DNA of 64,000 nt from Desulfovibrio sp. UIB00 (lineage in GTDB: Bacteria; Desulfobacterota; Desulfovibrionia; Desulfovibrionales; Desulfovibrionaceae): positions 1 to 64,000 of the forward strand of contig NZ_JAETXJ010000005.1 of NCBI RefSeq assembly GCF_022508225.1. The letters run 5' to 3'. The stretch's first letter is position 1. Each line of letters starts with the position of its first letter. The notes under the pieces are model-generated. The model saw nothing but the letters and a program-made list of their open reading frames with translations. It ran no database searches and was not told the DNA's origin. This document shows, one piece after another, positions 8,646 through 39,160 of this stretch. Both the position numbers and the translations under genes were made by a program.

Positions 8646-8663
8646 TAGGTACAGGGGTTAACA

Positions 8664-9941
8664 ATGCGCATTCTTTTTTTGAATTCTGTTTTTCCTGGCC
8701 GCTTTCGTTCTCTTGCCCAGGCCTTTGGCGCATCCCAGAACAATACCGTGCTGTTTCTTGCAGAAACCGGGCAAAAACTTGCCATTCCCGGTGTGCGGCG
8801 GCTGCGTTTGGCGCCGCCTGCGCCCTATGAAAGCGACGACCCGGCAGAAAAGGAAATCGTGACGCGCCTGCGGCGTGGCGCGCGGGCGGGCAATGCCCTG
8901 CTGTCGTTGCGGAGAAACGGTTTTGTCCCAGATATCATCTGCGCTGCGGCAAGCATGGGCGGCAGTTTTTACGTGCGCGACATCTTCCCCAAGGCTTTTT
9001 ATGTGGCTCAGGGCGACTGGTTTTACAACAATGGCGAGAGCCACTGCTTTTTTACGCGTGGCAACCCCCGCCCCCCGGCGGACTTTGCCCCCCTGCGGGT
9101 GTGCAATCTGTGGGAATACAACGCGTTGGGCGAATGCCAGCTTGCCGTTACCTCCTCCCTCTGGCAACGCGCCCAGTACCCCCCCGCGCTGCAACGCGAC
9201 ATAAAGGTTGTGCCCAGCGGCATCAACACGCGCTTTTTTATGCCCGGCGAGGAAAAAAAGGATGGCGATGCCGCAGGCGACGGCGTTGCTGATTCCTGGG
9301 GATGCGCAAGCAATGAGCTGGTGACCTTTTGCGGCCCCATGCACGACCCCGCGCGCGGCTTTGACCAGTTCCGCAAGTGCCTGCCGCGCCTGCTTGAATT
9401 GCGTCCTAACTGCCTTGTGGTGCTGGCCTGGCTTGATATTGCCCAGACCGGGCGCAAACAGGGTGGCGGCTCAGATACGCCAGCCGAATGCACCGAGACC
9501 GGCAAGGCCATGCGCCGTGCGGTAGATATTCTGGGCATAGATCAGAGCTTCCGGGCGCGTGTGCACCTGCTTGGCGCGCGTTCGCTCAAGGAATATCGGG
9601 CCATGCTGCAACATTCCACCGCTCATGTGTATCTGGCCGCGCCGCATGTGTTTTCCACCGGTTTGCTTGAGGCCATGGCCTGCGGTTCACTGGTTGTGGC
9701 ATCGGACACGCCGCCTGTGCGCGAAGTGGTACAGGACGGTGTAAACGGCTTTTTGTGCGAATTCTGGGATCATGAAAACATGGCGCAAAAACTGGCTGAT
9801 GTGCTGGCGCGGGCTCCGCAACTGGGGCATGTACGGCGTAATGCACGGCAAACGGTGCTGCGTTCGTATGATGCGGATGTGCAGACGCGCAGATTTATGG
9901 ATCTCATCAGCGCAAGCATGAAGGGCAGTGCAGAAGGCTGA
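8664..9941 (+). CDS. Family 4-type glycosyltransferase
   Basis: A 425-residue GT-B glycosyltransferase that would move a sugar from an activated donor to an unknown acceptor in the cytoplasm. The N-terminus (FPGRFRSLAQAFGASQNN) matches the PF12000-type acceptor-binding half, and the C-terminal half carries the donor-site pattern LLEAMACGSLVVASDTPPVR. The first Glu of the usual E-x7-E motif is replaced by His, as I recall for this subfamily (often a non-Glu residue there). It starts 18 bases after the sensor gene, so it is probably in the same transcript; a role in glycosylating the exported surface protein or an extracellular polysaccharide is possible but not shown. Confidence 0.82.
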   Translation: MRILFLNSVFPGRFRSLAQAFGASQNNTVLFLAETGQKLAIPGVRRLRLAPPAPYESDDPAEKEIVTRLRRGARAGNALLSLRRNGFVPDIICAAASMGGSFYVRDIFPKAFYVAQGDWFYNNGESHCFFTRGNPRPPADFAPLRVCNLWEYNALGECQLAVTSSLWQRAQYPPALQRDIKVVPSGINTRFFMPGEEKKDGDAAGDGVADSWGCASNELVTFCGPMHDPARGFDQFRKCLPRLLELRPNCLVVLAWLDIAQTGRKQGGGSDTPAECTETGKAMRRAVDILGIDQSFRARVHLLGARSLKEYRAMLQHSTAHVYLAAPHVFSTGLLEAMACGSLVVASDTPPVREVVQDGVNGFLCEFWDHENMAQKLADVLARAPQLGHVRRNARQTVLRSYDADVQTRRFMDLISASMKGSAEG

Positions 9942-26533: not shown

Positions 26534-27574
26534 ATGTCCAAACTGGCAATGAAAACCATCCATGTGCATGACGCCGTGGGCAGTATTTTGTGTCACGACA
26601 TCACCAGGATTATTCCTGGTGAAAGCAAGGGGCCTGTTTTTCGCAAAGGCCATGTTGTGCGGGAAGAAGACGTTGAGGTGCTGTTGCAGGTTGGCAAAGA
26701 GCATCTTTATGTTTTTGAATCCCTGCCCGGCATGGTTCACGAAAACGATGCCGCCGCGCGTGTTATTTCTGCCGTTTCCGGCGGCAACCTGACATGCACG
26801 GAGCCCAAGGAAGGGCGTATCGACCTCAAGGCCGCCTGTGACGGGCTGCTGCGTGTGGATGTGCCTGTTCTCAACCGTATAAACAGCCTTGGCGAAATTT
26901 CTGTCGCAACTATCCACTCCATGCAGCACGTGACGAAGGGGCGCTCGGTAGCGGGAGCCCGCGTGGTGCCGTTGATGATTGAGGATGAAAAATTGCGGCA
27001 GCTAGAATCTTTCGTCGATGGGCCGGTCGTTGAAGTTCTGCCTCTGCGTCGCGCCAGGGTTGGCGTGGTCACAACGGGCAGCGAAGTATTTTACGGGCGC
27101 ATTCAGGATGCCTTTGGCCCTGTGCTGCGCAAAAAGTTTGCCGCTCTTGGCAGCACGGTGGTGGGGCAGACCCTCACCAGCGATGAAGTGCCCATGACTG
27201 CCGGAGCAATCAGGGATTTTCTCGAACAGGGCGCTGACTTTATTGTGGTAACAGGCGGAATGTCTGTTGACCCGGACGACCGCACGCCAACTGCCATCCG
27301 CGCTTCCGGAGCGGAGGTGGTCAGCTATGGCGCGCCTGTGTATCCGGGGGCCATGTTCCTTCTGGCCTATGCCCAGGGGGCGGCAGGACGGGTGCCCGTG
27401 TTGGGGCTGCCCGGATGCGTCATGTACCACAAGGCCAGCATTTTTGATCTCGTTGTGCCGCGCCTGCTGGCCGGCATTGAGGTAACGGCAGCTGATGTGG
27501 CGGCATTGGGGCACGGGGGCTTTTGCTCCCAGTGTGAAGAATGCCGCTATCCGATCTGTCCGTTCGGGAAATAG
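26534..27574 (+). CDS. MoeA-like molybdopterin-binding protein with C-terminal Cys cluster
   Basis: A 346-residue protein with a MoCF-biosynthesis (MPT-binding) domain at about 175-310: VGVVTTGSEVFYGRIQD, then FIVVTGGMSVDPDDRTP and VLGLPGC are the motifs that hold molybdopterin in MogA/MoeA. The N-terminal third (about 1-160) resembles the extended MoeA-like proteins of anaerobes rather than E. coli MoeA. Its last 16 residues hold four Cys (331, 334, 337, 342; pattern C-x2-C-x2-C-x4-C), a possible Fe-S or zinc site not found in standard MoeA. It lies 76 bases before mop on the same strand, so a role in inserting molybdenum or handing the cofactor to this enzyme is likely; that is inference. 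Confidence 0.85.
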   Translation: MSKLAMKTIHVHDAVGSILCHDITRIIPGESKGPVFRKGHVVREEDVEVLLQVGKEHLYVFESLPGMVHENDAAARVISAVSGGNLTCTEPKEGRIDLKAACDGLLRVDVPVLNRINSLGEISVATIHSMQHVTKGRSVAGARVVPLMIEDEKLRQLESFVDGPVVEVLPLRRARVGVVTTGSEVFYGRIQDAFGPVLRKKFAALGSTVVGQTLTSDEVPMTAGAIRDFLEQGADFIVVTGGMSVDPDDRTPTAIRASGAEVVSYGAPVYPGAMFLLAYAQGAAGRVPVLGLPGCVMYHKASIFDLVVPRLLAGIEVTAADVAALGHGGFCSQCEECRYPICPFGK

Positions 27575-27650: not shown

Positions 27651-30377
27651 ATGGAAACAAAAACCCTTGTGATTAACGGCATTCCCCGGCGCTTGCTGGC
27701 TAACCCCGACGATATGCTTGTGGACGTGCTGCGCGATCAGTTGCAGCTCACCAGTGTCAAAGTTGGTTGCGGCAAGGGTCAGTGCGGTGCCTGCACGGTG
27801 ATCCTTGACGGCAAAGTTGTACGCGCCTGCGTGGTCAAAATGAGCCGCGTGGCGGAAAACGCCGCCGTAACCACGCTGGAAGGCGTGGGTACCCCCGACC
27901 ATCTGCATCCGCTCCAGCATTCCTGGATTTACCACGGCGCGGCCCAGTGCGGTTTCTGTACCCCCGGTTTCATCGTTTCGGCCAAGGCCCTGCTTGATTC
28001 CAATCCCAATCCCAGCCGTGAAGACGTGCGCGACTGGTTCCAGAAAAATCACAACGTCTGCCGCTGTACGGGCTACAAGCCCCTGGTGGACGCGGTCATG
28101 GACGCCGCCGCCCTCATGCGCGGTGATAAAACGCTGGACGACGTTACCTTCAAGATGCCTGCCGATGGCCGCATCTGGGGTTCCACCATGCCCCGTCCTT
28201 CTGCCGTCGCCAAGGTGACGGGCACTGCCGAATTCGGCGCGGACGCGGCGCACCGCCTGCCCGCCAACACCCTGCACCTCGCCATTGCCCAGGCCAAGGT
28301 ATCTCATGCCAACATCAAGGGCATAGACACCTCTGAAGCCGAAAAAATGCCCGGCGTGTACAAGGTTCTGACCCACAAGGACGTGAAGGGCAGGAACCGC
28401 ATCACCGGCCTGATCACCTTCCCCACCAACAAGGGCGATGGCTGGGAACGTCCTATCCTTAACGATACCAAAATCTTCCAATACGGCGATGCGCTGGCCA
28501 TTGTCTGCGCTGACTCCGAATGCAACGCCCGCGCTGCGGCTGAAAAGGTCAAGTTTGACCTTGAGCTGCTGCCCGAATACATGAGCGCCCCCGAGGCCAT
28601 GGCCCCGGACGCCATCGAAATCCACCCCGGCACCCCCAACATCTACTACGACCAGCTTGAGGAAAAAGGCGCGGATACCGCTCCCTTCTTCAATGATCCG
28701 GCAAACGTCATCGCGGAAGGCGATTACTACACCCAGCGCCAGCCCCACCTGCCAATCGAACCCGACGTGGGCTACGGCTATGTGAACGACAAGGGCCAGG
28801 TGGTTCTCCACTCCAAGTCCGTTGCCATTCATCTGCACGCGCTGATGATCGCCCCCGGCCTCGGCCTGGAATTCCCCAAGGATCTCGTGCTGGTGCAGAA
28901 CACCACCGGCGGCACCTTTGGCTATAAGTTCAGCCCCACCATGGAAGCCCTTGTGGGCGTGGCCGTTATGGCTACCGGCCGTCCCTGCCACCTGCGTTAC
29001 AACTACGAACAGCAGCAGAACTACACCGGCAAGCGTTCGCCCTTCTGGACGACCGTGCGCTTTGCCGCCAACAAGCAGGGCAAGATTCTTGCCATGGAAA
29101 CGGACTGGAGCGTTGACCACGGCCCCTACTCCGAATTCGGCGATCTGCTCACCCTGCGCGGCGCGCAGTATATCGGCGCTGGTTACGGCATTGCCAACAT
29201 TCGCGGCAAGGGCCGCACCGTTGCCACCAACCACTGCTGGGGTGCGGCTTTCCGCGGCTACGGCGCGCCGGAAACCGAATTCCCCTCCGAAGTGCTCATG
29301 GACGAACTGGCTGAAAAGCTGGGCATGGATCCCTTCGACATCCGCGAGCTGAACTGCTACCGCGAAGGCGATACCAACCCCTCCGGTCAGGTGCCTGAAG
29401 TCATGAGCCTGCCCGAAATGTTCCAGAAAATGCGCCCCTACTACGAAGAAGCCAAAAAGACCGTTAAGGCCAAGTCCACCGCCGAAGTCAAACGCGGCGT
29501 GGGTATTGCCCTTGGCGTGTATGGCGCGGGCCTTGACGGGCCGGACACCTCCGAAGCCTGGGCCGAACTGAACCCCGACGGCAGCGTCACTGTGGGCAAC
29601 TCGTGGGAAGACCACGGCCAGGGCGCTGACTCCGGCACTCTGGGCACCGCCCATGAAGCGCTGCGTCCTCTGGGCATCAAGCCTGAAAACATCCATCTGG
29701 TCATGAACGACACCAGCAAGACCCCCAATTCCGGCCCTGCTGGCGGTTCGCGCTCCCAGGTTGTCACCGGCAACGCCACCCGCGTGGCCTGCGAAATGCT
29801 TATTGAAGGCATGCGCAAGCCCACCGGCGGCGGCTTCTTCACCTATGAGGAAATGAAGGCCGAAGGCCGCCCCGTGCACTATGACGGCAAGTGGTCTGCT
29901 CCGGCCAAGGACTGCGATGCCAAGGGCCAGGGCGAACCCTTTGCCTGCTACATGTACGGTCTGTTCCTTGCCGAAGTGGCCGTTGAGGTCGCAACCGGCA
30001 AGACCACGGTTGAAAAGCTTGTGTGCGTGGCTGACATCGGCACCCTGTGCAACAAGCTGGTGGTTGACGGTCAGATCTACGGCGGCTTGGCGCAGGGCGT
30101 TGGCCTTGCCCTGACCGAAGACTACGAAGACCTGAAGAAGCACAGCACCCTTGCTGGCGCGGGCGTGCCCACCATCAAGATGATTCCTGACGACATGGAA
30201 ATCGTCTATGTGCAGACCCCCCGCAAGGCTGGCCCCTTCGGCGCTTCCGGCGTGGGCGAAATGCCCCTTACCGCGCCGCACCCTGCCATCATCAACGCCA
30301 TCTACAATGCTTGCGGCGCGCGTGTGCGCCACTTGCCCGCCCGCCCCGAAAAGGTGTTGGCGGCCATGCCCAAGTAG
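27651..30377 (+). CDS. mop: Molybdenum aldehyde oxidoreductase (D. gigas Mop type)
   Basis: A xanthine oxidase-family enzyme that oxidises aldehydes to carboxylic acids, holding molybdopterin cytosine dinucleotide and two 2Fe-2S clusters. At 908 residues it is almost the same length as D. gigas Mop (907) and very similar to it. The plant-ferredoxin-like cluster uses Cys 40, 45, 48 and 60; the second cluster uses Cys 100, 103, 137 and 139 (QCGFC and CRCTG). The large Mo domain keeps GGTFGYK, FRGYGAPE, GPAGGSR and the catalytic Glu in GASGVGEMPLTAP. AAAGGAG precedes the ATG. It has no FAD domain, so electrons leave to a separate partner, possibly the fusion flavoprotein encoded next. The enzyme is cytoplasmic or periplasmic by family debate; no signal peptide is seen. 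Confidence 0.97.
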   Translation: METKTLVINGIPRRLLANPDDMLVDVLRDQLQLTSVKVGCGKGQCGACTVILDGKVVRACVVKMSRVAENAAVTTLEGVGTPDHLHPLQHSWIYHGAAQCGFCTPGFIVSAKALLDSNPNPSREDVRDWFQKNHNVCRCTGYKPLVDAVMDAAALMRGDKTLDDVTFKMPADGRIWGSTMPRPSAVAKVTGTAEFGADAAHRLPANTLHLAIAQAKVSHANIKGIDTSEAEKMPGVYKVLTHKDVKGRNRITGLITFPTNKGDGWERPILNDTKIFQYGDALAIVCADSECNARAAAEKVKFDLELLPEYMSAPEAMAPDAIEIHPGTPNIYYDQLEEKGADTAPFFNDPANVIAEGDYYTQRQPHLPIEPDVGYGYVNDKGQVVLHSKSVAIHLHALMIAPGLGLEFPKDLVLVQNTTGGTFGYKFSPTMEALVGVAVMATGRPCHLRYNYEQQQNYTGKRSPFWTTVRFAANKQGKILAMETDWSVDHGPYSEFGDLLTLRGAQYIGAGYGIANIRGKGRTVATNHCWGAAFRGYGAPETEFPSEVLMDELAEKLGMDPFDIRELNCYREGDTNPSGQVPEVMSLPEMFQKMRPYYEEAKKTVKAKSTAEVKRGVGIALGVYGAGLDGPDTSEAWAELNPDGSVTVGNSWEDHGQGADSGTLGTAHEALRPLGIKPENIHLVMNDTSKTPNSGPAGGSRSQVVTGNATRVACEMLIEGMRKPTGGGFFTYEEMKAEGRPVHYDGKWSAPAKDCDAKGQGEPFACYMYGLFLAEVAVEVATGKTTVEKLVCVADIGTLCNKLVVDGQIYGGLAQGVGLALTEDYEDLKKHSTLAGAGVPTIKMIPDDMEIVYVQTPRKAGPFGASGVGEMPLTAPHPAIINAIYNACGARVRHLPARPEKVLAAMPK

Positions 30378-30441: not shown

Positions 30442-30634
30442 ATATCCCAGCCCCATGTTTATTCGTCAGGTTTACCGCGCGCCGGGCCATGAGCGCCGTA
30501 ACGGTGTGCAATGTTTTTGCAGCGGGGCTTTCGGGGGTATCTCTGAAAGCTCCGTTTGTATTTTCGGCGGCAACCTGCGCCGCCTGCCCCTTGCAGCAGC
30601 GCCTGTCTGCACCAAGCCAGCGAGAACAATCGCC

Positions 30635-33148
30635 ATGATGGATCAACAACGTCTGCACGAAATAGAGTCGCACTGCACACAGGAAAGCCCGCCCCGTTGC
30701 CGGGTGGCCTGTCCTTTTGATCTAGATGTGCGCGCCTTCATGGCCCGCATGGCTGAGGGCAAGCAGGGGGAGGCCCGCAAGGTGCTTGAGCGGCATTTGC
30801 CCCTGCCCGGCATCATTGCCCGCATTTGCGATCATCCCTGTGAAAACTCCTGTCTGCGGCAGGATCTGGGCGGCAGCCTCGCCATGCATGGGCTTGAACT
30901 CTCGTGCATGCTTGCGGTGGGTACGCAGACCCGTATGCTGCCTTTGCCGCCCAAAAAATTCCGCATGGCCGTCATGGGTGCCGGGCTTGCCGGGCTCACG
31001 GCAGCCTGGGATCTGTCGCGCAAGGCTTACCCCGTTACAGTCTTTCACTCTGGCGCGCCGGGTGAATTTTTGCTGGCAGCGCATCCCGCACTGGCGGCAG
31101 ACAATACGGCGGGCATTGCCAAGGATTTTCTGGCCGAAGACATGGAAGCTCTTGGCCGCCAGAAGGTCAGTTTTACTCAGGCAACGCTTGATGCCGCGCT
31201 GCTGGAAAAGCTGGCGGCGGAGTATGACGCCGTACTGGTGGATGCTGATGCCGTGCAGCAGCTTGCCCCCGGTCTTGCACCAGACGAAGCGCTGGTGGAG
31301 GCGGAAACCCTGCTCTGGCGCGACAATATCTGCTGCGCTGGCTGGCGAAGCCGCACTCCCACAGGTCACGCTTTCGCCTCACCTTCGCGTCAGGCGGGGC
31401 AGGGGCGGCATGCCGCCCAGACAATGGAGCGCGTGACCAGCGGCGTTTCCCTCACAGCAGCGCGGGACAAATCTCAGGGGCCGCTGCACACCGATGTGAC
31501 AGGTATTGCGCCCGTGCCGCGCGTGGAACCAGCCGCGCAGGCTGTTTGCGGCGAGCCGCTCTATTCGGCGGAGGAATCCGCGCGCGAGGCGGAGCGCTGC
31601 CTGCAATGCCAGTGTATGATCTGTGTGCGCGAATGCGTATATTTGCAGAAATACAAGGGTTATCCGCGCCTCTACGCACGTCAGGTCAATAACAACGCGT
31701 CCATCGTCAAGGGCCTGCACACGGCCAATGCCCTCATCAATGGCTGCGCCCTGTGCGGTCAGTGCGAGGAGCTGTGCCCGGAGAATTTTTCCATGGCCGA
31801 GCTGTGCCTCTCCGCACGGGAAGACATGGTGGAACGCGGCTTTATGCCGCCCACGGCCCACGAGTTTGCGCTTGAGGATATGGAAAGCGCCTCCGGGCCG
31901 GAATGCGCCCTTGTGCTGCCGCCCTTGTCGCCAGCCGCAGAATCCCAGGGCGCTGACGCGAGTCAGGCGGTGGGCGAGCAGTGGCTGTTCTTCCCCGGCT
32001 GTCAGTTGGCTGCGGCCCGCGTGGAACAAACGGCGGCGCTTTATGATCTGCTGCGCGAAAAATTTGGCAACGGCCTGAAATCCGGCGTGGGCATCATGCT
32101 TTCCTGCTGCGGCATCCCAGCGCGCTGGGCCGGAAGAACCACCCTGTTCAAGGAGCATACGGACAAACTGCGCACCGCCTGGGAGGGTCTAGGCAAGCCG
32201 CGCATCATGGCGGCCTGTTCCTCCTGCATTGCGGCCCTGCGGGAGGCTCTGCCGGAAGCGCAGACCGTTTCCGTGTGGGAGGTGCTGGACGGCTTGCCGT
32301 TTGAAGCCCCCATTGCTGGTAATTCCCTGCCCTCGGTATTTTCCATTCAGGATCCCTGCACCGCCCGGCACGATGCGGCCTGGCTTGCCGCTGTGCGCAG
32401 TCTGGCTGACAAATGCGGGGCAAAAATTGAAGAACCGCGCCTTTCCGGCGCATCTACAGCCTGTTGCGGCTACGGCGGCCTTGTGTGGTGCGCCCAGCCG
32501 GAAACAGCGCGAGCCATGAGCGATCACCGGGCCGCCCAGCTTGAGCACCCCGGCCTTGCCTCGTGCATCATGTGCCGTGACCGCATGGCGGCCAGCGGCA
32601 AGGAGTGCTGGCATCTGCTTGATCTGTTGCTGCCAGCGTCAGGCAAGGCTCAGTCCGGCGCGGCTCAAGGGCCGGGCCTTTCGGCGCGTCGCGCCAACAG
32701 GGCTGCCTTGCGCCGTAAACTGCTGGAAAAATATGGCAGCGCCGCCGGGCAACAGGCCCTGCTTGCAGACACGCCCGAGCCGGCCGGAAAGGGCAGGGTG
32801 CTGGTGGCGGCGGATGTGTTGGCGCGGCTGGAAGAGCGGCATATTCTGCTTTCAGACGTGGAAGGGGCCGTTGTGGGGGCCGAGGCCAGTGGGCACTGGT
32901 TCGAGAATCTGGATGACGGGCATCGTCTTGGCTCGTGGCGGCCCAGAAAGGTGACTTTCTGGGTGGAATACGAAGCGCAGGGCGAGGTCTTTGTCCTGCA
33001 CGATGCGTGGTGCCACCGGATGGTGGTGCCGGGTTCCGGCGGTCAGGAAGCTGCGGATGTCATCAACAGCCACCAGTGCTGCACCGATGGGCAGCGTCCC
33101 AACATGTTGGGTGCGCAAAATGGCGGGCAGAGAGGTGAACAGTCATGA
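30635..33148 (+). CDS. Fusion flavoprotein: GltD-like, ferredoxin and two CCG (HdrB-like) domains
   Basis: An 837-residue redox protein recalled from annotation as pyridine nucleotide-disulfide oxidoreductase/dicluster-binding protein. The start at 30635 is preferred since the domain match begins there; its ribosome site is weak. Order: GltD-type Fe-S N-terminus (Cys at CRVACPF and CDHPCENSC), FAD-binding MAVMGAGLAGLTAAW (about 109-123), a two-cluster ferredoxin (CLQCQCMICVREC and CALCGQCEELC, about 325-395), then two CCG domains (FFPGCQ, LSCCGIP, ACSSC; and QDPCTARHD, ACCGYGG, ASCIMC) as in heterodisulfide reductase HdrB, which carry non-cubane clusters. The C-terminal 80 residues form a further domain with HDAWCHR. 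It probably takes electrons from Mop. The NAD(P) half of a normal GltD appears shortened. Confidence 0.85.
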   Translation: MMDQQRLHEIESHCTQESPPRCRVACPFDLDVRAFMARMAEGKQGEARKVLERHLPLPGIIARICDHPCENSCLRQDLGGSLAMHGLELSCMLAVGTQTRMLPLPPKKFRMAVMGAGLAGLTAAWDLSRKAYPVTVFHSGAPGEFLLAAHPALAADNTAGIAKDFLAEDMEALGRQKVSFTQATLDAALLEKLAAEYDAVLVDADAVQQLAPGLAPDEALVEAETLLWRDNICCAGWRSRTPTGHAFASPSRQAGQGRHAAQTMERVTSGVSLTAARDKSQGPLHTDVTGIAPVPRVEPAAQAVCGEPLYSAEESAREAERCLQCQCMICVRECVYLQKYKGYPRLYARQVNNNASIVKGLHTANALINGCALCGQCEELCPENFSMAELCLSAREDMVERGFMPPTAHEFALEDMESASGPECALVLPPLSPAAESQGADASQAVGEQWLFFPGCQLAAARVEQTAALYDLLREKFGNGLKSGVGIMLSCCGIPARWAGRTTLFKEHTDKLRTAWEGLGKPRIMAACSSCIAALREALPEAQTVSVWEVLDGLPFEAPIAGNSLPSVFSIQDPCTARHDAAWLAAVRSLADKCGAKIEEPRLSGASTACCGYGGLVWCAQPETARAMSDHRAAQLEHPGLASCIMCRDRMAASGKECWHLLDLLLPASGKAQSGAAQGPGLSARRANRAALRRKLLEKYGSAAGQQALLADTPEPAGKGRVLVAADVLARLEERHILLSDVEGAVVGAEASGHWFENLDDGHRLGSWRPRKVTFWVEYEAQGEVFVLHDAWCHRMVVPGSGGQEAADVINSHQCCTDGQRPNMLGAQNGGQRGEQS

Positions 33149-33360
33149 GCATGGGGCCAAACTACGGGCCGGACGGCGGCCAGTGGGTGTGCGGGCGTTG
33201 CCGCGTTGCCCTTGAGCAGGTGAAGGTTCCTGTTTTTTATCTCAACAGCGCCTTTGACGTGTTTTTGCCGCGCTGCCCCAAGTGCGGGCTGACGCAGGTG
33301 CCCAAATCTCTTGCCGAAGGCAAGATGCTTGAAGTGGAAGCTCTGCTGGAAGATAAATGA
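33145..33360 (+). CDS. Small zinc-ribbon redox protein (DVU_1557-like)
   Basis: A 71-residue protein with two Cys pairs, CGRC (about 16-19) and CPKC (about 43-46), which fits a zinc ribbon or rubredoxin-like metal site. Its ATG overlaps the stop codon of the fusion flavoprotein (ATGA) and its own stop overlaps the next start, so translation is coupled on both sides. I recall the family as occurring only beside mop-type clusters. A rubredoxin-like electron carrier is possible, but the spacing between the pairs is short of proof. Confidence 0.75.
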   Translation: MSMGPNYGPDGGQWVCGRCRVALEQVKVPVFYLNSAFDVFLPRCPKCGLTQVPKSLAEGKMLEVEALLEDK

Positions 33361-34202
33361 ACGCACTGTGGGAAAGACCGGACTTTCGCCGCGCGGCTGG
33401 TGACGCATGGCGTCCCGGCGGCGTGGAACTGACGCGTCGAGCGCTTGCGTGGTGCGCTTCTGCGGGCCTGCTCGCGCCCGGCGGGCTGGTTTTTGACCTT
33501 GGCAGCGGGGCAGGGGCGACATTGCGCCTGCTCACGCAGATGGGCTACCGTGCCGTGGGGCTGGACAAACACGCTGAGGCCGGACTTCCTGTGGATGCAG
33601 CCCCTTCTGCTGACGTCCACATTGTGCGGGCCGATCTTGAGCGCCCGCCGCTGACCGCAGACTCCTGCGACTGCATAGTGTGCGAATGTGTTCTTTCCCT
33701 GTTGCACAATCCCCTTGCGGCCTTGCGTGCCGCCTGCCGCGCCCTGCGCCCCGGCGGGGTGATGGTGGTCAGCGACCTCATGTTGCGGCCAGGGTATGAA
33801 CGCCCCGGCAGCACCGGCTGCTCTGGTGCAGGCTCTTCCCGCTCCCGTTGTTCCTGTTCCGGTCACGCAAGCGCAGTACAATCGAACTCGTCCCAATCCA
33901 TCCCGCCGACAACAGCGACAGCTGAGCCACTCCCGGAAAAATACGCCGCACCGGGTTCATCGTGCCTTGCGGGTGCGCGGCCTGAATCTGCGTGGCGTGG
34001 GCTTATGGAAGCGGCTGGCTTGCGTCTGCTGCATTATGAGGACAACAGCCGCGCTCTGGTGGAGCTGGCTGCCCGCATGATCTGGTACGGCGACGACGCA
34101 ACCCGGCCCGTTCAAGGGTGCAAGTGCGGGGGAACCGCCCCCGGCAAAAGCTGGCGCGCCTACGGATACGGCCTTTGGATTGCCCGAAAGGAGACCCCAT
34201 GA
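33357..34202 (+). CDS. SAM-dependent methyltransferase (DVU_1556-like)
   Basis: A class I (Rossmann) methyltransferase of 281 residues. The SAM-binding motif is VFDLGSGAGATLRLL (about 44-58), followed by the acidic residue in VGLDKH, VRADLERPPL and the strand-4 region CDCIVCECVLSLL. After the GGVMVVSDLMLRPGYE strand lies a 50-residue insert (about 147-200) rich in Ser, Gly and Cys (GCSGAGSSRSRCSCSG) that breaks the C-terminal part of the domain and has a codon pattern like its surroundings. The C-terminus has a CKCGG. It overlaps both neighbours by four bases. The substrate is unknown; a cofactor precursor or the partner radical SAM system is a reasonable guess. Confidence 0.85.
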   Translation: MNALWERPDFRRAAGDAWRPGGVELTRRALAWCASAGLLAPGGLVFDLGSGAGATLRLLTQMGYRAVGLDKHAEAGLPVDAAPSADVHIVRADLERPPLTADSCDCIVCECVLSLLHNPLAALRAACRALRPGGVMVVSDLMLRPGYERPGSTGCSGAGSSRSRCSCSGHASAVQSNSSQSIPPTTATAEPLPEKYAAPGSSCLAGARPESAWRGLMEAAGLRLLHYEDNSRALVELAARMIWYGDDATRPVQGCKCGGTAPGKSWRAYGYGLWIARKETP

Positions 34203-34663
34203 ATCCCATGATGATGGAATTATTGCCCCTGGTGCATCAGGGCTATTGTTGCAGCCAGTTGCTGCTCCTGCTCATGTTGCAGGCTCAGGACAGGCAGAAC
34301 CCCGGCGTTGTGCGCGCCGCGCAGGGCCTGTGTCACGGCATCGGTCAATCGGACGGCCCTTGTGGCCTTTTGACCGGCGGGGCCTGCGCACTGGCTCTGG
34401 TCGCGGGTAAGGGGGCGGAAGATGAAATCCCGCATCCCATGCTCACCCCCCTGCTCAATGACTACGCCACATGGTTTTATGACCGCACGGAAGCTTACGG
34501 CGGTCAGCGTTGCGGGCAGATTGCGGCTGGGCTCGGCGCGACTTCCGGTGCTGCGGGCGAGCAGCCAAATCCTGTGGCCTGCGGCGACTTGCTAGCGGAA
34601 TGCTGGGGAAAAATCATGGAACTGGTTCAGAGTTACGAGCTGGATCTGACGGAAAAGGCATGA
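34199..34663 (+). CDS. C_GCAxxG_C_C family protein (DVU_1555-like)
   Basis: A 154-residue helical Cys-rich protein. The series of conserved small residues and Cys is seen as YCCSQ (about 17-21), GLCHGIGQSDGPCG (about 47-60), GACALAL and later QRCGQIAAG and VACGDLL, which fits the C_GCAxxG_C_C family thought to bind a metal or redox cofactor. The ATG at 34199 overlaps the methyltransferase stop codon and has AAAGGAG at 34187-34193. The function of the family is not known. Its place between a methyltransferase and a radical SAM enzyme suggests it belongs to the same pathway. Confidence 0.82.
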   Translation: MNPMMMELLPLVHQGYCCSQLLLLLMLQAQDRQNPGVVRAAQGLCHGIGQSDGPCGLLTGGACALALVAGKGAEDEIPHPMLTPLLNDYATWFYDRTEAYGGQRCGQIAAGLGATSGAAGEQPNPVACGDLLAECWGKIMELVQSYELDLTEKA

Positions 34664-36129
34664 CCTTACGCCGCACCCAGAGCCTTTGCCCCGTGTGTCT
34701 GCGCCGGGTAGAGGCCACCTATGAACGTTCGGTCAAGGATGCCCTTACGGTTGTGCTGCGCAAAACCTGCCCGGATCACGGCACGTTTAGTGTCCCCGTA
34801 TGGCGAGAGGCCAAGCCCGGTGCGGTTGCCACGCCGCCCTTTGCAGCATGGTCGCGGCCCAAAAGCCCCTCCTACCCGGCCAACCCGCATACGCCCATCC
34901 GCGATGGCTGCCCCTTTGACTGCGGCCTTTGCCCTGCCCACGCCCAACATACCTGCACGGGCCTGTTTGAGGTCACCATGCGCTGCGACATGTCCTGCCC
35001 CGTGTGCTATGCTTCTGCTGGTTCCATCTCGAACCAATATTCCGGCGAGGCGGCAGACGTTCCGTTCAGTGTGATTGCGGCGCAGATGGACACCCTCAAG
35101 GGAGCGTCCGGCCCCTGCAACGTGCAGATATCCGGAGGAGAGCCGACCATGCGCCATGACCTGCCGCAGATCATCACACTTGCGCGGCAACGCGGCTTTG
35201 GGCTGGTGCAGATCAATACTAACGGACTGCGTTTGTCGCGCGAGCAGGGCTATGCCCGCGTGCTGCGCGAGGCGGGGCTTGATTCTGTCTATCTGCAATG
35301 GGACGGCGTGTGCGAAAGCAGTTTTACAAGCCTTCGGGGCAGGGAATGCCTTGATTTCAAGCGCCGCGCCGTGCGCAACTGTGCAGAGGCTGGGCTTGGC
35401 GTGGTGCTGGTGGCAACTCTCGTGCGAGGCGTCAACGATGGCGAACTCGGCGATCTGCTGCGCATGGCGTTGGAGCTTGGCCCGGCGGTGCGGGGGCTGC
35501 ACATGCAGCCAGCCGCATTTTTTGGCCGCTACCCCTGGCGGCTGGAGGAAGCCCCGCGCCTGACCCTGCCCGAAGTCATGGCAGCACTGGCCCATCAGGC
35601 ACCGGAAATGGTCAGCCCTAGCCACCTGCACCCGCCTGGATGTGAAAACGAGCTGTGTTCCTTCAGTGCCGTGTACCGTCGGGTGCAAAAAAACGGTGTA
35701 CCTTCGCTGGAATGGCTGGCCGATGCGGGGCAGTCGTGCTGCTCGCCAGCACCGAAGGCCGCTGGCGCGGAAGTGCCGCCATCAGCGGAGGACGGCGCGC
35801 GCAAGGCCAAGCAGTTTGTGGCCCTGCACTGGAAGGGCGGCACCGACGGCGGGGAATCTGCCTGCGCCTGTGGGGGCGCATCTGGCTCTGACGCTGGCAG
35901 CGCAGGCAGCAAGGCCAGTGCGGACGGCTTCAGCCGATTTCTGGCTCAGGCTGGGGCAGAGCAGCGTTTCACACTTTCGGCCATGGCCTTTCAGGATGCC
36001 CTGAGCCTCGACCTTGACCGTGTACGCGGCTGCTGCATCCATGTGGTGCGGCCTGACGGGCGCATGATTCCGTTCTGCTTGCATAACCTCACTGCCAGTG
36101 ATGGCACGCGCCTGTATGGTGACGCATAG
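34660..36129 (+). CDS. Radical SAM enzyme of the MJ0619-like type (TrsS-like)
   Basis: A 489-residue radical SAM protein. An N-terminal zinc-ribbon-like segment (Cys 10, 13 and 37, then HG) precedes two CxxxCxxC motifs: CPFDCGLC (84, 88, 91) and CDMSCPVC (109, 113, 116). The second binds the SAM cluster. This double arrangement matches MJ0619, which methylates the pterin ring in methanopterin synthesis. The barrel follows (SGGEPTMRHDLP, INTNGLRLS). The C-terminal third has a Cys pair (360-361, QSCCS), then a 60-residue Gly/Ser/Ala insert with CACGG, and later GCCIHVV. I recall relatives with selenocysteine in this part; here there is no in-frame TGA. It overlaps the preceding gene (ATGA). Confidence 0.85.
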   Translation: MTLRRTQSLCPVCLRRVEATYERSVKDALTVVLRKTCPDHGTFSVPVWREAKPGAVATPPFAAWSRPKSPSYPANPHTPIRDGCPFDCGLCPAHAQHTCTGLFEVTMRCDMSCPVCYASAGSISNQYSGEAADVPFSVIAAQMDTLKGASGPCNVQISGGEPTMRHDLPQIITLARQRGFGLVQINTNGLRLSREQGYARVLREAGLDSVYLQWDGVCESSFTSLRGRECLDFKRRAVRNCAEAGLGVVLVATLVRGVNDGELGDLLRMALELGPAVRGLHMQPAAFFGRYPWRLEEAPRLTLPEVMAALAHQAPEMVSPSHLHPPGCENELCSFSAVYRRVQKNGVPSLEWLADAGQSCCSPAPKAAGAEVPPSAEDGARKAKQFVALHWKGGTDGGESACACGGASGSDAGSAGSKASADGFSRFLAQAGAEQRFTLSAMAFQDALSLDLDRVRGCCIHVVRPDGRMIPFCLHNLTASDGTRLYGDA

Positions 36130-37253
36130 TGACAGATACCGCGAATCAACCTTCCATAACGGGTTTCGGCTCCTGCCCGCTTGATCGCTGGCTGGCCCGC
36201 CAGTGCGGGGCACGTAGCGCCGGGGAACTGCCCGGCAAGCTGGCGATTGCGCAAGCGGCCCTGCTGCGCAGCACCTTGCGGCAGGCCGTGCATGGGGCGT
36301 TTTATGCCAGGCATTTGCGGGAGTGCGATCTGGATATAACCAGTGTGGATGATCTGGAGCGCCTGCCCTTCACCACAGCGGAAGACCTGCGCAACTGGGG
36401 GGATTTTTTGTGCGTTTCGCAGGGGGATGTGCAGCGTATGGTCACGCTGCACACGTCAGGCACCACGGGGCAACCCAAGCGGCTTGCCTTTACTGATGCG
36501 GATTTGGCCCGCACGCGCGATTTTTTTTCCGTGGGCATGAGCCAGCTTGTGGGCGCAGGGCAGCGGCTGGCAGTGCTGTTGCCCGGTGCGGAACGGCCTG
36601 ACGGCGTGGCCGACCTGCTGCGACAGGCCTTGGGCGCGGCGGGTGTGGATGTGCTGGCTCCACCGCCGGAAGTCCACGCGACCCCATCGCCAGATGCTGA
36701 CCCTTGCGCGGAGCCGGGCAAAGCTCTTGCCCAGTGGCTGGAGCAGACAAAGCCCCATTGCCTTGTGGCCGCGCCCGCGCAACTGGCCCTTTTGCTGAAA
36801 CATTTCCCCGAACGGGGGCCGCAGGGGCTTGCGGGCGTACTCACCAGCGCTGAGCCGCTGGACGATGCGCTTGGTCTGGCCTTGCGCCGGGCGTGGCAAT
36901 GCGAGATTCTGGATCACTACGGCCTCACCGAAACCGCCTACGGTTGCGCGGTGGAATGCCCCGCACATCAGGGTTTTCACGTGCGCGAACTGGACGTTCT
37001 GATAGAAATAGTAGATATTTCAGGGCGTAAAGTGTTGGCCCAAGGCGAGGAGGGCGAGGTCGTCATTACCACGCTTCAACGACAGGCCATGCCCTTGGTG
37101 CGATATCGAACTGGTGATGTGGCCTGTCTGCTGCCAGCCCCTTGCGCCTGCGGCAGCCCCTTGCGCAGGCTCGGCCCTGTGCGTGGCCGCATTGAACGCA
37201 AAAGCGGGCAGCCGCCGCGCATCGTGCGCCCGGCCAAGGGGCGGGGTGTTTAG
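36129..37253 (+). CDS. AMP-dependent ligase-like adenylating enzyme lacking the C-terminal domain
   Basis: A 374-residue member of the phenylacetate-CoA ligase/coenzyme F390 synthetase branch of adenylating enzymes. The ATP loop LHTSGTTGQPKR (about 107-118), the LTSAEPLDD strand, YGLTETAYGC and VRYRTGDVACLL are present, and CACG near the end recalls the Cys motif of F390 synthetase. The chain stops soon after the hinge (RGRIERKSGQ), so the usual mobile C-terminal domain of about 90 residues, which has the catalytic Lys and does the thioester step, is missing. It might only adenylate, or act with a partner. The GTG start at 36129 overlaps the TAG of the radical SAM gene. Confidence 0.82.
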   Translation: MTDTANQPSITGFGSCPLDRWLARQCGARSAGELPGKLAIAQAALLRSTLRQAVHGAFYARHLRECDLDITSVDDLERLPFTTAEDLRNWGDFLCVSQGDVQRMVTLHTSGTTGQPKRLAFTDADLARTRDFFSVGMSQLVGAGQRLAVLLPGAERPDGVADLLRQALGAAGVDVLAPPPEVHATPSPDADPCAEPGKALAQWLEQTKPHCLVAAPAQLALLLKHFPERGPQGLAGVLTSAEPLDDALGLALRRAWQCEILDHYGLTETAYGCAVECPAHQGFHVRELDVLIEIVDISGRKVLAQGEEGEVVITTLQRQAMPLVRYRTGDVACLLPAPCACGSPLRRLGPVRGRIERKSGQPPRIVRPAKGRGV

Positions 37254-37340
37254 CGTCTGATGCCATGCCCAACAATGGGTATTTGTATCTGGCTCCACAC
37301 AGTGATTGTTTTCAGCGCAACAAAGCGAAGAAGAAAGCAC

Positions 37341-38588
37341 ATGAAACCAGCCGTTTTGATTCTTGCCGCAGGCATGGCCTCGCGCATGGGGGCAGCCAAG
37401 GCACTGCTTTCCCTGCCCTCGCTGCCAGAAGGCGGGCGCTGCTCCGCCCTGAGGGGGCTGGTCAGTCTGTACCATACCCTTGGTGTGGAAGATGTGGTGA
37501 TCATCAGCGGCTTCCATGCCGAAATTGTGGAAGCAGAGGCTCTGGCGCTGGGGCTGACCCCAGTGCGCAATCCCGACCCGCAGCGGGGCATGTTTTCATC
37601 TGTGCAGACAGGCGTGGAAGCTCTGGTGAAGGGCGGTTTTAACGGGCAATTTTTTGTGCAGCCTGTGGATGTACCGCTGGTGCGGCCCCTGACCATCAAG
37701 GCATTGCTTGATGCCGCAGGGCAGGAAGAGGCCAACCAGGCGGCAGAGCTGGCTGTGAGCGGCAAGGCCGCGTCCATGCCGGTGCTTGTGCCGACATTTG
37801 ACGGACAGGAGGGGCATCCTCCCCTGATTCCCATGAGCTTGGCCCCGCATATTCTGGCGCACCAGGGGCAAAACGGGCTGCGCGGGGCGCTGGAAGGCGC
37901 GCCTTTGCGGCATGTGCCTGTGGCTGACGCCCTGATTCTGGAAGATATGGACACCCCAGACGACTATGCGCGCCTGCGGGTGCTGGCTAGTGAGCGGCAT
38001 ACTTTGTCGCCCGTTGAGGCGGAATGCTTGCTGCGTATGTGCAACGTGCCGGAAAAAGGCTTGCGTCACGCGCGGGCAGTGGGGGCTGTGGCCTGTTGCC
38101 TGGCCGAGGCTCTCGCGCACGTGCGTGAGGCCGCAGGCTATGATGCCGGGGTGGATCCCCGCCTGGCGCTGGCTGGTGGGTTGCTGCACGATATCTGCAA
38201 AGGCCAGCCCAGGCATGAGGCTGCTGCTGGGGAATTTTTACGGCGGCTGGAATTGCCGGAGATGGCGCGTCTGGTGCAGGATCACCGTGATCTGTCCTTG
38301 CCGGAGGACGAGCCGGTCACAGAGCGCGAGCTGGTCTATTTGGCCGACAAATACTGTTACGGCGGCAACTTTGTGCCTGTGCAGCGGCGCTTTGGCCTCA
38401 AACTGGAGGCTTATGCCCAGGATGCCCCGGCCTGCGAGGCCATCCGGGGGCGGCTTGGTCGCGTCAAGGCTTTGGAAGAGCGCATTGCCCGCGAAATAGG
38501 CAAAGAACCCGCCTTGGTGGCGGAACGCGCCCTTGTGCGTAATTGCAATGCTGCGCGCGGCAATGTTGCCCGGCGTGAGGTTGCATGA
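37341..38588 (+). CDS. Fusion of MocA-like nucleotidyltransferase and HD phosphohydrolase
   Basis: A 415-residue two-domain protein. Residues 1-200 are a MobA/MocA-type NTP transferase: LAAGMASRMGAAK is the nucleotide-binding signature, with FVQPVDVPLV as the metal-binding aspartate region. MocA adds CMP to molybdopterin to make the cytosine dinucleotide that Mop needs, so that is the leading role. Residues 230-400 are an HD domain (GLRHARAVG, LLHDICKGQPRHE, LADKYCYGG), a likely phosphohydrolase. The fusion could combine cofactor charging with removal of a phosphate or diphosphate by-product; that is inference. The start at 37341 is chosen from the NTPase motif position and GAAGAA upstream. 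Confidence 0.85.
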   Translation: MKPAVLILAAGMASRMGAAKALLSLPSLPEGGRCSALRGLVSLYHTLGVEDVVIISGFHAEIVEAEALALGLTPVRNPDPQRGMFSSVQTGVEALVKGGFNGQFFVQPVDVPLVRPLTIKALLDAAGQEEANQAAELAVSGKAASMPVLVPTFDGQEGHPPLIPMSLAPHILAHQGQNGLRGALEGAPLRHVPVADALILEDMDTPDDYARLRVLASERHTLSPVEAECLLRMCNVPEKGLRHARAVGAVACCLAEALAHVREAAGYDAGVDPRLALAGGLLHDICKGQPRHEAAAGEFLRRLELPEMARLVQDHRDLSLPEDEPVTERELVYLADKYCYGGNFVPVQRRFGLKLEAYAQDAPACEAIRGRLGRVKALEERIAREIGKEPALVAERALVRNCNAARGNVARREVA

Positions 38589-39160
38589 GCGGCATCTGGC
38601 TGGTGCGGCACGGCATGTTGCCGCCCAATCCAGAGCGGCGCATGGTCGGCGCGAGGGATATTCCTTTAAGTGATGCGGGCCGGGAGCAGATACGGCTTTT
38701 GGCGAAGCAGTTCATGCCAGCGGTGCAGGGCGCGCTTGGCGCGGTCATCTGCTCGGATCTTGACCGCTGCCGTGAGACTGCCGCCATCCTGATGGAGGCA
38801 GTGCCGCAGGGGCGGCCCCCCTTGCATGTGGAGCCCGGTCTGCGCGAGATTGATCTTGGCCTCTGGCAGGGCATGACCAAGGCGGAAATTGAGCGCGCGT
38901 GGCCCGGCGCATATGCCGCACGCGGGCAGGATATGGCGCATTTTTGCCCCCCGCAGGGTGAAAGTTTCATGCAGGCGCAGCGCCGCGCCCTGGCGGCTGT
39001 GGCGCGCTGGCGCAGGCACTACCCCGGTGCAACCCTGCTCATGGTTTCGCATGCGGGTATTCTGGGCAGCTTGCTGGCCCACTACCTTGCCCTGCCGCTC
39101 AGGGATGTGCTACGCATACCCCAATACTACGGCTGCCGCGCCTTTGTGCCGGAATGGTAG
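38585..39160 (+). CDS. Histidine phosphatase family protein
   Basis: A 191-residue phosphoglycerate-mutase-like phosphatase. The catalytic RHG is at about 8-10 (WLVRHGM), the second Arg in SDLDRCRETA, the acid in REIDLGLWQGM, and the second His in MVSHAGIL; all four are in place. Relatives include alpha-ribazole phosphatase and phosphosugar phosphatases, and the short length fits those. It overlaps the preceding gene by four bases (ATGA) and ends the overlapped run. A role in removing a phosphate from a cofactor intermediate fits the neighbours but is not shown. Confidence 0.88.
   Translation: MSGIWLVRHGMLPPNPERRMVGARDIPLSDAGREQIRLLAKQFMPAVQGALGAVICSDLDRCRETAAILMEAVPQGRPPLHVEPGLREIDLGLWQGMTKAEIERAWPGAYAARGQDMAHFCPPQGESFMQAQRRALAAVARWRRHYPGATLLMVSHAGILGSLLAHYLALPLRDVLRIPQYYGCRAFVPEW

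Follow-up and report, generated by a model that had tools for sequence, protein, structure and literature searches.

A conserved eight-gene set linked to the aldehyde oxidoreductase gene mop of Desulfovibrio encodes a candidate electron partner and a radical SAM enzyme of the tetraether-synthase type

The aldehyde oxidoreductase Mop of Desulfovibrio gigas has been a model molybdoenzyme for decades, yet a 2023 review, in the part of the text available, gives flavodoxin only as the putative physiological electron partner (PMC10223205). The enzymes of D. gigas and D. desulfuricans have been studied in isolation; the word "operon" is absent from the available text of the same review. In Clostridium ljungdahlii, four-gene mop sets were noted that comprise, in the same order as here, a molybdopterin cytosine dinucleotide (MCD)-dependent aldehyde oxidoreductase, a fusion of a flavin adenine dinucleotide (FAD) part with a CCG pair, a four-cysteine protein, and a C_GCAxxG_C_C protein; the authors proposed that the CCG pair serves a membrane-bound carrier, and the organism appears to lack quinones (PMC5640608, part of the text). 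Another described relative is GDGT-MAS (Tes), the mj0619 product, which couples lipid carbons through a carbon-sulfur intermediate on its C-terminal cluster and of which bacterial homologues of unknown role are said to exist (Nature 2022 paper, in part). Here, we analysed a 64,000-nt window of Desulfovibrio sp. UIB00 (RefSeq assembly GCF_022508225.1, contig NZ_JAETXJ010000005.1, positions 1 to 64,000 of the forward strand), in which mop is followed by eight genes that are a real, widely conserved, mop-linked set.

The open reading frames confirmed the eight overlapped + strand genes behind mop (30635-39160) that had been reported in a first-pass annotation of the window. Six of the seven junctions overlap by 1-4 bases, as ATGA at 33145, 33357, 34199, 34660, and 38585 and as TAGTG at 36127-36131; at the one remaining junction, the adenylating and MocA-HD genes are 87 nt apart. 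The spacing between mop and gene 1 is 257 nt and contains a terminator-like hairpin. The features of the locus are as follows.

26534..27574, + strand: moeA-type molybdopterin-binding protein, upstream of mop (PF00994 MoCF_biosynth, E 2.3e-22)
27651..30377, + strand: mop, molybdopterin-dependent aldehyde oxidoreductase with two 2Fe-2S centres and molybdenum cofactor (Moco), without flavin domain (NF045668, 1651.9 bits, cut-off 1100)
30521..30556, + strand: terminator-like hairpin between mop and gene 1 (16-pair stem, T-rich tail; consensus match only)
30635..33148, + strand: gene 1, [4Fe-4S]+FAD/HdrC-like/HdrB-like CCG fusion (NF045663, 859.3 bits, cut-off 530)
33145..33360, + strand: gene 2, DVU_1557 small CxxC...CxxC redox protein or zinc ribbon (NF045645, 86.1 bits, cut-off 60)
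33357..34202, + strand: gene 3, DVU_1556 family S-adenosylmethionine (SAM)-dependent methyltransferase (NF045667, 195.6 bits, cut-off 155)
34199..34663, + strand: gene 4, DVU_1555 family C_GCAxxG_C_C redox protein (NF045669, 158.6 bits, cut-off 103)
34660..36129, + strand: gene 5, TrsS, radical SAM enzyme of the tetraether-synthase (GDGT-MAS) type (NF045646, 551.1 bits, cut-off 490)
36129..37253, + strand: gene 6, DVU_1553 family adenylate-forming enzyme without C-terminal domain, GTG start (NF045666, 392.8 bits, cut-off 300)
37341..38588, + strand: gene 7, DVU_1551 family MocA-like nucleotidyltransferase fused to an HD domain (NF045665, 379.7 bits, cut-off 315)
38585..39160, + strand: gene 8, CobC-like histidine phosphatase (PF00300, E 3.4e-46)

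The earlier domain calls were correct in kind according to NCBIfam and Pfam, the latter assigning PF12804 and PF01966 to gene 7. Since seven of the eight genes exceeded curated NCBIfam cut-offs (the DVU_1551-1558 families and TrsS), the parts were already catalogued, one by one, in families that carry no function; the genes here need no selenocysteine. The present analysis adds the mop linkage, the fusions, and the Tes-type metal sites. A table row for DVU1558 was the only occurrence of the DVU1551-1558 names found in the open-access literature, and the main text of a fitness study (PMC10102598) has no DVU155x entry. The C. ljungdahlii account, in the text available, does not mention TrsS, the methyltransferase, the adenylating enzyme, or MocA-HD (PMC5640608).

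The conservation of the set was examined in a GTDB genome scan with the TrsS alignment, and the locus counts rest on the best 80 of at least 581 relatives. Where the contig extends 8.2 kb or more upstream of a sampled TrsS, mop was present at 49 of 55 loci, and one of the six others (L115; L and G numbers denote loci and genomes, respectively) holds a mop piece below the threshold used. The mop-bearing loci were distributed over at least seven phyla, including Desulfobacterota, Bacillota (Acetobacterium, Clostridium, Blautia, Sporomusa), Chloroflexi, Spirochaetes, Synergistaceae, Alphaproteobacteria (Rhodoplanes, Pleomorphomonas), and Acidobacteriaceae. TrsS was found in all 80 loci, the adenylating enzyme in 68, gene 1 and the C_GCAxxG protein in 66 each, DVU_1557 in 65, the methyltransferase in 63, mop in 58, MocA-HD in 44, the phosphatase in 33, and moeA in 20, counts that are lowered by short contigs. 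The gene order was the same in 39 of the 61 loci having at least six of nine families. An arrangement with the same families in the same order in many phyla is far beyond chance.

Next, presence was scored in 297 genomes of the order (mop at E<=1e-300, TrsS at E<=1e-90). Both genes were detected in 178 genomes, mop only in 12, TrsS only in 11, and neither in 96 (Fisher p 6e-51, kinship ignored); among 61 relatives, TrsS was above the cut-off in 27 genomes and mop in 26. The mop-only genomes apart from G110, G273, and G300 were inspected: three (G160, G169, G114) have the full cluster with TrsS split in the search, and in five (G277, G239, G112, G108, G219) the locus is broken off by a contig end. 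Likewise, among the TrsS-only genomes apart from G098, G171, and G208, a mop piece lies at the contig edge in G252 and G268, the contig of G296 begins inside gene 1, and TrsS is under its own cut-off in G038, G054, G066, G075, and G079. The first-pass annotation had described a dedicated system tied to mop, and both surveys bear this out: the set tracks mop across genomes, and genes lying far from any mop-like gene were looked for and proved uncommon.

Fifteen genomes lack a complete mop at the TrsS locus. A mop-family protein (E<=1e-100) was found elsewhere in 12 of them, six of these proteins being above the curated cut-off and one just under it (1099.7), and a gene 1 match in 11 of the 15. 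At L153 and L136, TrsS, the methyltransferase, the adenylating enzyme, and a gene 1 relative occur together without mop; therefore, the TrsS block is separable from the cofactor genes of mop. In L153 (6255-17838), the block is flanked by a fumarate-reductase-like pair on one side and by a corrinoid protein and its RACo reductive activator on the other. A second, more distant mop (about 45-47% identity) was observed in G028 (L061, L063) and G029 (L074), and G028 has an additional stand-alone TrsS paralogue.

Gene 1 consists of a GltD/NfnL-type [4Fe-4S]+FAD part, an HdrC-like dicluster, two HdrB-like CCG domains, and a C-terminal domain. In an alignment of 46 sequences (the window protein and 45 of 57), the GltD-type cysteines (C14, C22, C26, C65, C69, C73), the dicluster cysteines, and both CCG sets (C456, C491, C492, C528, C531 and C575, C610, C611, C644, C647) were invariant. 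The predicted model (predicted local distance difference test score 88.6) aligned through residues 16-270 with residues 46-472 of NfnL (238 aligned, Z 22.3), indicating that gene 1 lacks the NAD(P)H domain, a stretch of about 170 residues; the relative at the mop-less L153 keeps this domain (PF07992 over residues 107-401). Residues 448-680 aligned with HdrB (Z 16.5-17.1). Gene 1 thus shares with HdrABC and NfnL the NfnL-type two-cluster FAD part and the HdrC-like and HdrB-like parts, but it is a single chain without the NAD(P)H domain and with an extra C-terminal domain. Both complete CCG cysteine sets are shared with HdrB, and disulfide reduction by gene 1 is a putative activity. That gene 1 is the electron partner of Mop is probable and is the firmest inference of the analysis; in our judgement it is a better candidate than flavodoxin. 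This gene, which adjoins mop in many phyla, codes for a plausible flavin partner.

The C-terminal domain of gene 1 (about residues 682-800; 32678-33035) is conserved, has an HRM motif, and has no assigned family. It gave no match in the structure search with the whole model, in which it was not folded or searched alone. Its L153 counterpart is apparently encoded separately, by a small gene (8623-8898).

The only full-length relative of TrsS with known structure is GDGT-MAS (PDB 7tol, 7tom; sequence E 2.5e-128). The TrsS model matched the GDGT-MAS fold with E 3.7e-39 and a template modelling (TM) score of 0.73, the next match being MoaA (2.2e-11). In an alignment of 49 sequences (the window protein and 48 of 75), the following metal ligands were invariant: the rubredoxin site (CxxC..CxxH; C10, C13, C37, H40), the [4Fe4S]N cluster (CxxxCxxCxxH; C84, C88, C91, H94), the radical SAM motif (CxxxCxxC; C109, C113, C116), and the labile Met of the C-terminal cluster (M442). 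TrsS thus resembles GDGT-MAS/Tes in sequence and fold over its full length, in the rubredoxin site, in the N-terminal cluster with His, in the radical SAM cluster, and in the labile Met; the second lipid-pocket region is not comparable, and the host bacteria and neighbours are different. Because the metal ligands are kept, chemistry on an unactivated sp3 carbon is likely, and the C(sp3)-C(sp3) lipid coupling of GDGT-MAS/Tes is a putative activity of TrsS. GDGT-MAS is the only enzyme known to join two inert sp3 carbons, and the operon holds a relative of it; the cluster gives gene context to one large group of bacterial GDGT-MAS homologues.

The original designation of this enzyme as "MJ0619-like" stands as a relationship; the pterin methylation that it carried is no longer implied, MJ0619 now being a tetraether-lipid synthase. 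Methylation of this type was dropped for TrsS because the assignment could not be corroborated by the authors of the Nature 2022 paper (part of the text). TrsS is also listed as a radical SAM selenoprotein, credited to Haft and Tolstoy 2025, mSystems, in the part available of a 2026 review (PMC13188914). The TrsS of L027 was considered as a selenoprotein and rejected, its single TGA being an ordinary stop at the frame end. A Eubacterium contig (L134:30-5370) carries consecutive genes for two copies of TrsS, an adenylating enzyme, a protein with DUF5714, and a lipoate-protein ligase. In L147 a DUF5714 gene neighbours TrsS, in L117 the two are fused, and DUF5714 may replace the C_GCAxxG protein.

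The adenylating enzyme had been called truncated, which is right for Desulfovibrio-like loci and not for most other lineages. Of 90 distinct tails, 67, from outside the Desulfovibrio-like loci, keep a C-terminal domain of about 100 residues, and 63 of these contain a K[RK]x[ILMVT] motif. The short form (the other 23 tails) has in place of this domain about 20-40 residues, which contain Lys-Gly in 22 cases and Lys-Arg in one. The C-terminal domain of PaaK-type CoA ligases, which serves the thioester step, is absent from the window protein (36129-37253), and the short Lys-Gly tail may substitute for the catalytic lysine of the lost domain. We know of no report of this form in the open-access papers, to which the literature search was confined.

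Seven kinds of accessory-gene fusion, read as stop-to-stop frames and mostly single cases in draft contigs, were found in the relatives' loci. They join gene 1 to DVU_1557 (L114, L145, L068, and a fragment in L101), TrsS to the methyltransferase (L156), TrsS to the adenylating enzyme (L113), MocA-HD to TrsS (L127, L112), the methyltransferase to the adenylating enzyme (L146), the adenylating enzyme to the phosphatase (L115), and MocA-HD to the phosphatase (L094). Evolutionary distances were compared over 42 loci with 300 permutations, none of which reached any observed correlation. The values among gene 1, TrsS, the methyltransferase, and the adenylating gene were 0.75-0.78, and those of mop were 0.70 with gene 1, 0.57 with TrsS, 0.47 with the C_GCAxxG gene, 0.44 with the methyltransferase, and 0.38 with the adenylating gene. 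These correlations fit gene 1 as a possible hinge between mop and the rest; shared descent contributes to them, and rates differ.

The window mop is the only match of its family (E<=0.001) and the only xanthine-oxidase-family protein found in its own genome; over 908 aa it shares 89% identity with the G021 mop, the first 104 residues of which equal PDB 1dgj. The first 103 residues of the chain in PDB 1vlb/1sij, which we take to be D. gigas Mop, are 100% identical in G121. The D. gigas and D. desulfuricans enzymes (1vlb/1sij and 1dgj) belong to the same enzyme family as the window Mop, and both genomes carry the cluster: all ten genes are present in G021, and G121 has moeA, mop, gene 1, DVU_1557, the methyltransferase, the C_GCAxxG gene, TrsS, the adenylating gene, XdhC, and the phosphatase in a row. 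MocA-HD was not found in G121 within the 19 kb read around the cluster. The 1.28 A structure of D. gigas Mop shows MCD with well-defined pterin rings (PMC10223205, part of the text). Because D. gigas has TrsS and seven of the eight genes and yet ordinary MCD, the accessory genes do not visibly remodel the Mop cofactor, and the candidate of a new MCD modification was downgraded.

The first-pass annotation had proposed that the radical SAM, methyl-transfer, adenylation, and phosphatase genes build or modify a cofactor or small carrier. This chemistry was only partly borne out: a role in cofactor supply suits MocA-HD, moeA, and, in other genomes, XdhC; remodelling by the rest, and with it a new cofactor or modification carried by Mop, is not supported, given the G121 locus. 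The moeA gene adjoins mop in many relatives and belongs with mop and the eight-gene set. An XdhC-type gene recurs in 46 of 116 loci, three copies having been confirmed by Pfam, and the single XdhC match in the own genome lies elsewhere.

On the computed features (gene content, linkage, fusions, metal ligands, and the missing NAD(P)H domain), we tentatively propose, at a little short of even confidence, that the eight genes form a partner set dedicated to Mop, in which cofactor supply, an electron outlet, and a separate acyl-type chemistry are combined. In this proposal, moeA, MocA-HD, and probably the phosphatase would make MCD and load it into Mop, with XdhC, which is in the operon of many relatives, aiding the supply from elsewhere in this genome. 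Gene 1 would stand in for the flavin domain that Mop lacks and receive electrons from its 2Fe-2S centres, which would then pass to the DVU_1557 protein or the CCG cluster pair and on to a disulfide-type or, less likely, a quinone acceptor; we infer this electron direction and acceptor, as well as the substrate and product of TrsS. TrsS would activate an unactivated sp3 C-H of an acyl-type molecule with metal centres as in the tetraether-lipid synthase, the adenylating enzyme would activate the carboxylate of this molecule, and the methyltransferase would methylate it, the C_GCAxxG protein presumably serving thiol redox. Most likely, the product would be either a small carrier that gene 1 uses at its disulfide end or an intermediate oxidised by Mop. 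Mop probably works in a larger pathway, because its neighbours resemble the missing electron partner and a lipid-joining radical enzyme.

Several observations weigh against this proposal. The link between gene 1 and Mop is a prediction from sequence, and flavodoxin accepts Mop electrons in vitro (PMC10223205, part of the text). The gene 1 model had no full-length structural match (best Foldseek TM 0.29-0.34), and the CCG pair also occurs in LutA (Z 18.4) and EtfD (Z 19.6), which match as well as or better than HdrB, EtfD over more of its length; a quinone or other acceptor is therefore possible. The fold match of TrsS to GDGT-MAS has a root mean square deviation of 6.8, TrsS is under the Tes cut-off (NF045702, 301.5 vs 450 bits), and Tyr459 of GDGT-MAS is not kept, the aligned residue V462 not being conserved. 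With these three results the acyl-type substrate of TrsS stays a candidate, and Tyr459 variants of GDGT-MAS remain active (Nature 2022 paper, in part). In G039, mop is present and the other genes are not within about 5 kb, and TrsS without any mop found was seen in G307, G311, and G312 (drafts of 1.7, 1.9, and 3.3 Mb). None of the accessory-gene fusions found includes mop, and since MocA-HD is missing at the D. gigas locus, it is not essential to the cluster.

Alternatively, Mop, TrsS, the methyltransferase, and the adenylating enzyme could catalyse consecutive steps on one metabolite, Mop converting an aldehyde to an acid, the adenylating enzyme activating the acid, and TrsS coupling or functionalising the alkyl part as in the synthesis of membrane-spanning lipids. 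The proximity of TrsS to a lipid C-C synthase, the PaaK-like adenylating enzyme with the C-terminal domain kept in most distinct tails, and the fusions of TrsS to the adenylating enzyme and to the methyltransferase speak for such a pathway; however, mop distances track the accessory genes less well than these track one another, the recurrent neighbours, named partly by eye, include no recognised lipid or fatty-acid gene, and the tyrosine of GDGT-MAS is lost from TrsS. We consider this pathway unlikely, if a serious competitor. Very improbable, by comparison, is the modification of molybdopterin or of the dinucleotide cofactor of Mop by the radical SAM, methyltransferase, and adenylating genes. 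The MocA-HD-TrsS fusions and the occurrence of moeA, MocA-HD, and XdhC within the same clusters would agree with it, but D. gigas carries TrsS and companions beside mop and its enzyme contains plain MCD, the genome of the 1dgj enzyme has all ten genes, and the pterin role of MJ0619 lacks corroboration in the available text of the Nature 2022 paper.

TrsS and its companions might instead act on a protein, namely Mop, gene 1, or the C_GCAxxG protein, as many radical SAM maturases adjoin their protein target and genes 2 and 4 encode small, conserved Cys proteins that could be targets. This is highly doubtful, since the available text of PMC10223205 mentions no modified Mop residue and the TrsS model has no SPASM-type full-length match, those to MoaA and SkfB being partial. 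A reversed electron flow, in which gene 1 and gene 2 would give low-potential electrons supplied by Mop to TrsS, could account for the gene 1-TrsS distance correlation (0.78, as high as with any other gene) and for the rubredoxin-type iron site of TrsS, which needs a donor; taken alone, it leaves the pair of conserved CCG domains and the genes for the adenylating enzyme and the methyltransferase unexplained, and we regard it as very unlikely.

A more speculative and, in our estimate, improbable extension is an undescribed thiol cofactor, in which TrsS would employ the sulfur-bearing C-terminal cluster of the tetraether-synthase fold to add a C-S (or C-C) bond to an acyl scaffold activated by the adenylating enzyme and capped by the methyltransferase. 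Gene 1 would be the flavin-linked reductase of this cofactor, with its HdrB-like clusters facing the disulfide, and Mop would supply the electrons. If this were true, sulfate reducers, acetogens, and gut anaerobes would couple aldehyde oxidation to a new small-molecule disulfide, and the gene row of L134 would be a variant of the same system. The context provided by the cluster makes both the partner of Mop and the role of the GDGT-MAS homologues testable in genetically tractable sulfate reducers and acetogens.

Some assignments at the margins of the set were less specific. The moeA-type protein reached no NCBIfam MoeA cut-off in the NCBIfam scan, gene 7 was below the MocA cut-off (TIGR03310, 90.7 vs 186.45 bits), and gene 8, which has no family of its own in the DVU_155x/TrsS set, was below that of the alpha-ribazole phosphatase CobC (TIGR03162, 130.3 vs 162.9 bits). 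The window molybdoenzyme was also below the cut-off for selenium-dependent molybdenum hydroxylases (TIGR03311, 423 vs 830.45 bits). Terminator-like sites numbered 23 in the region versus 12.8 (standard deviation 3.6) in shuffles, and the hairpin at 30521-30556 may be an attenuator that sets mop expression above that of the accessory genes. The methyltransferase contains a low-complexity Ser/Gly-rich insertion (33850-33990), and similar inserts interrupt TrsS in some relatives.

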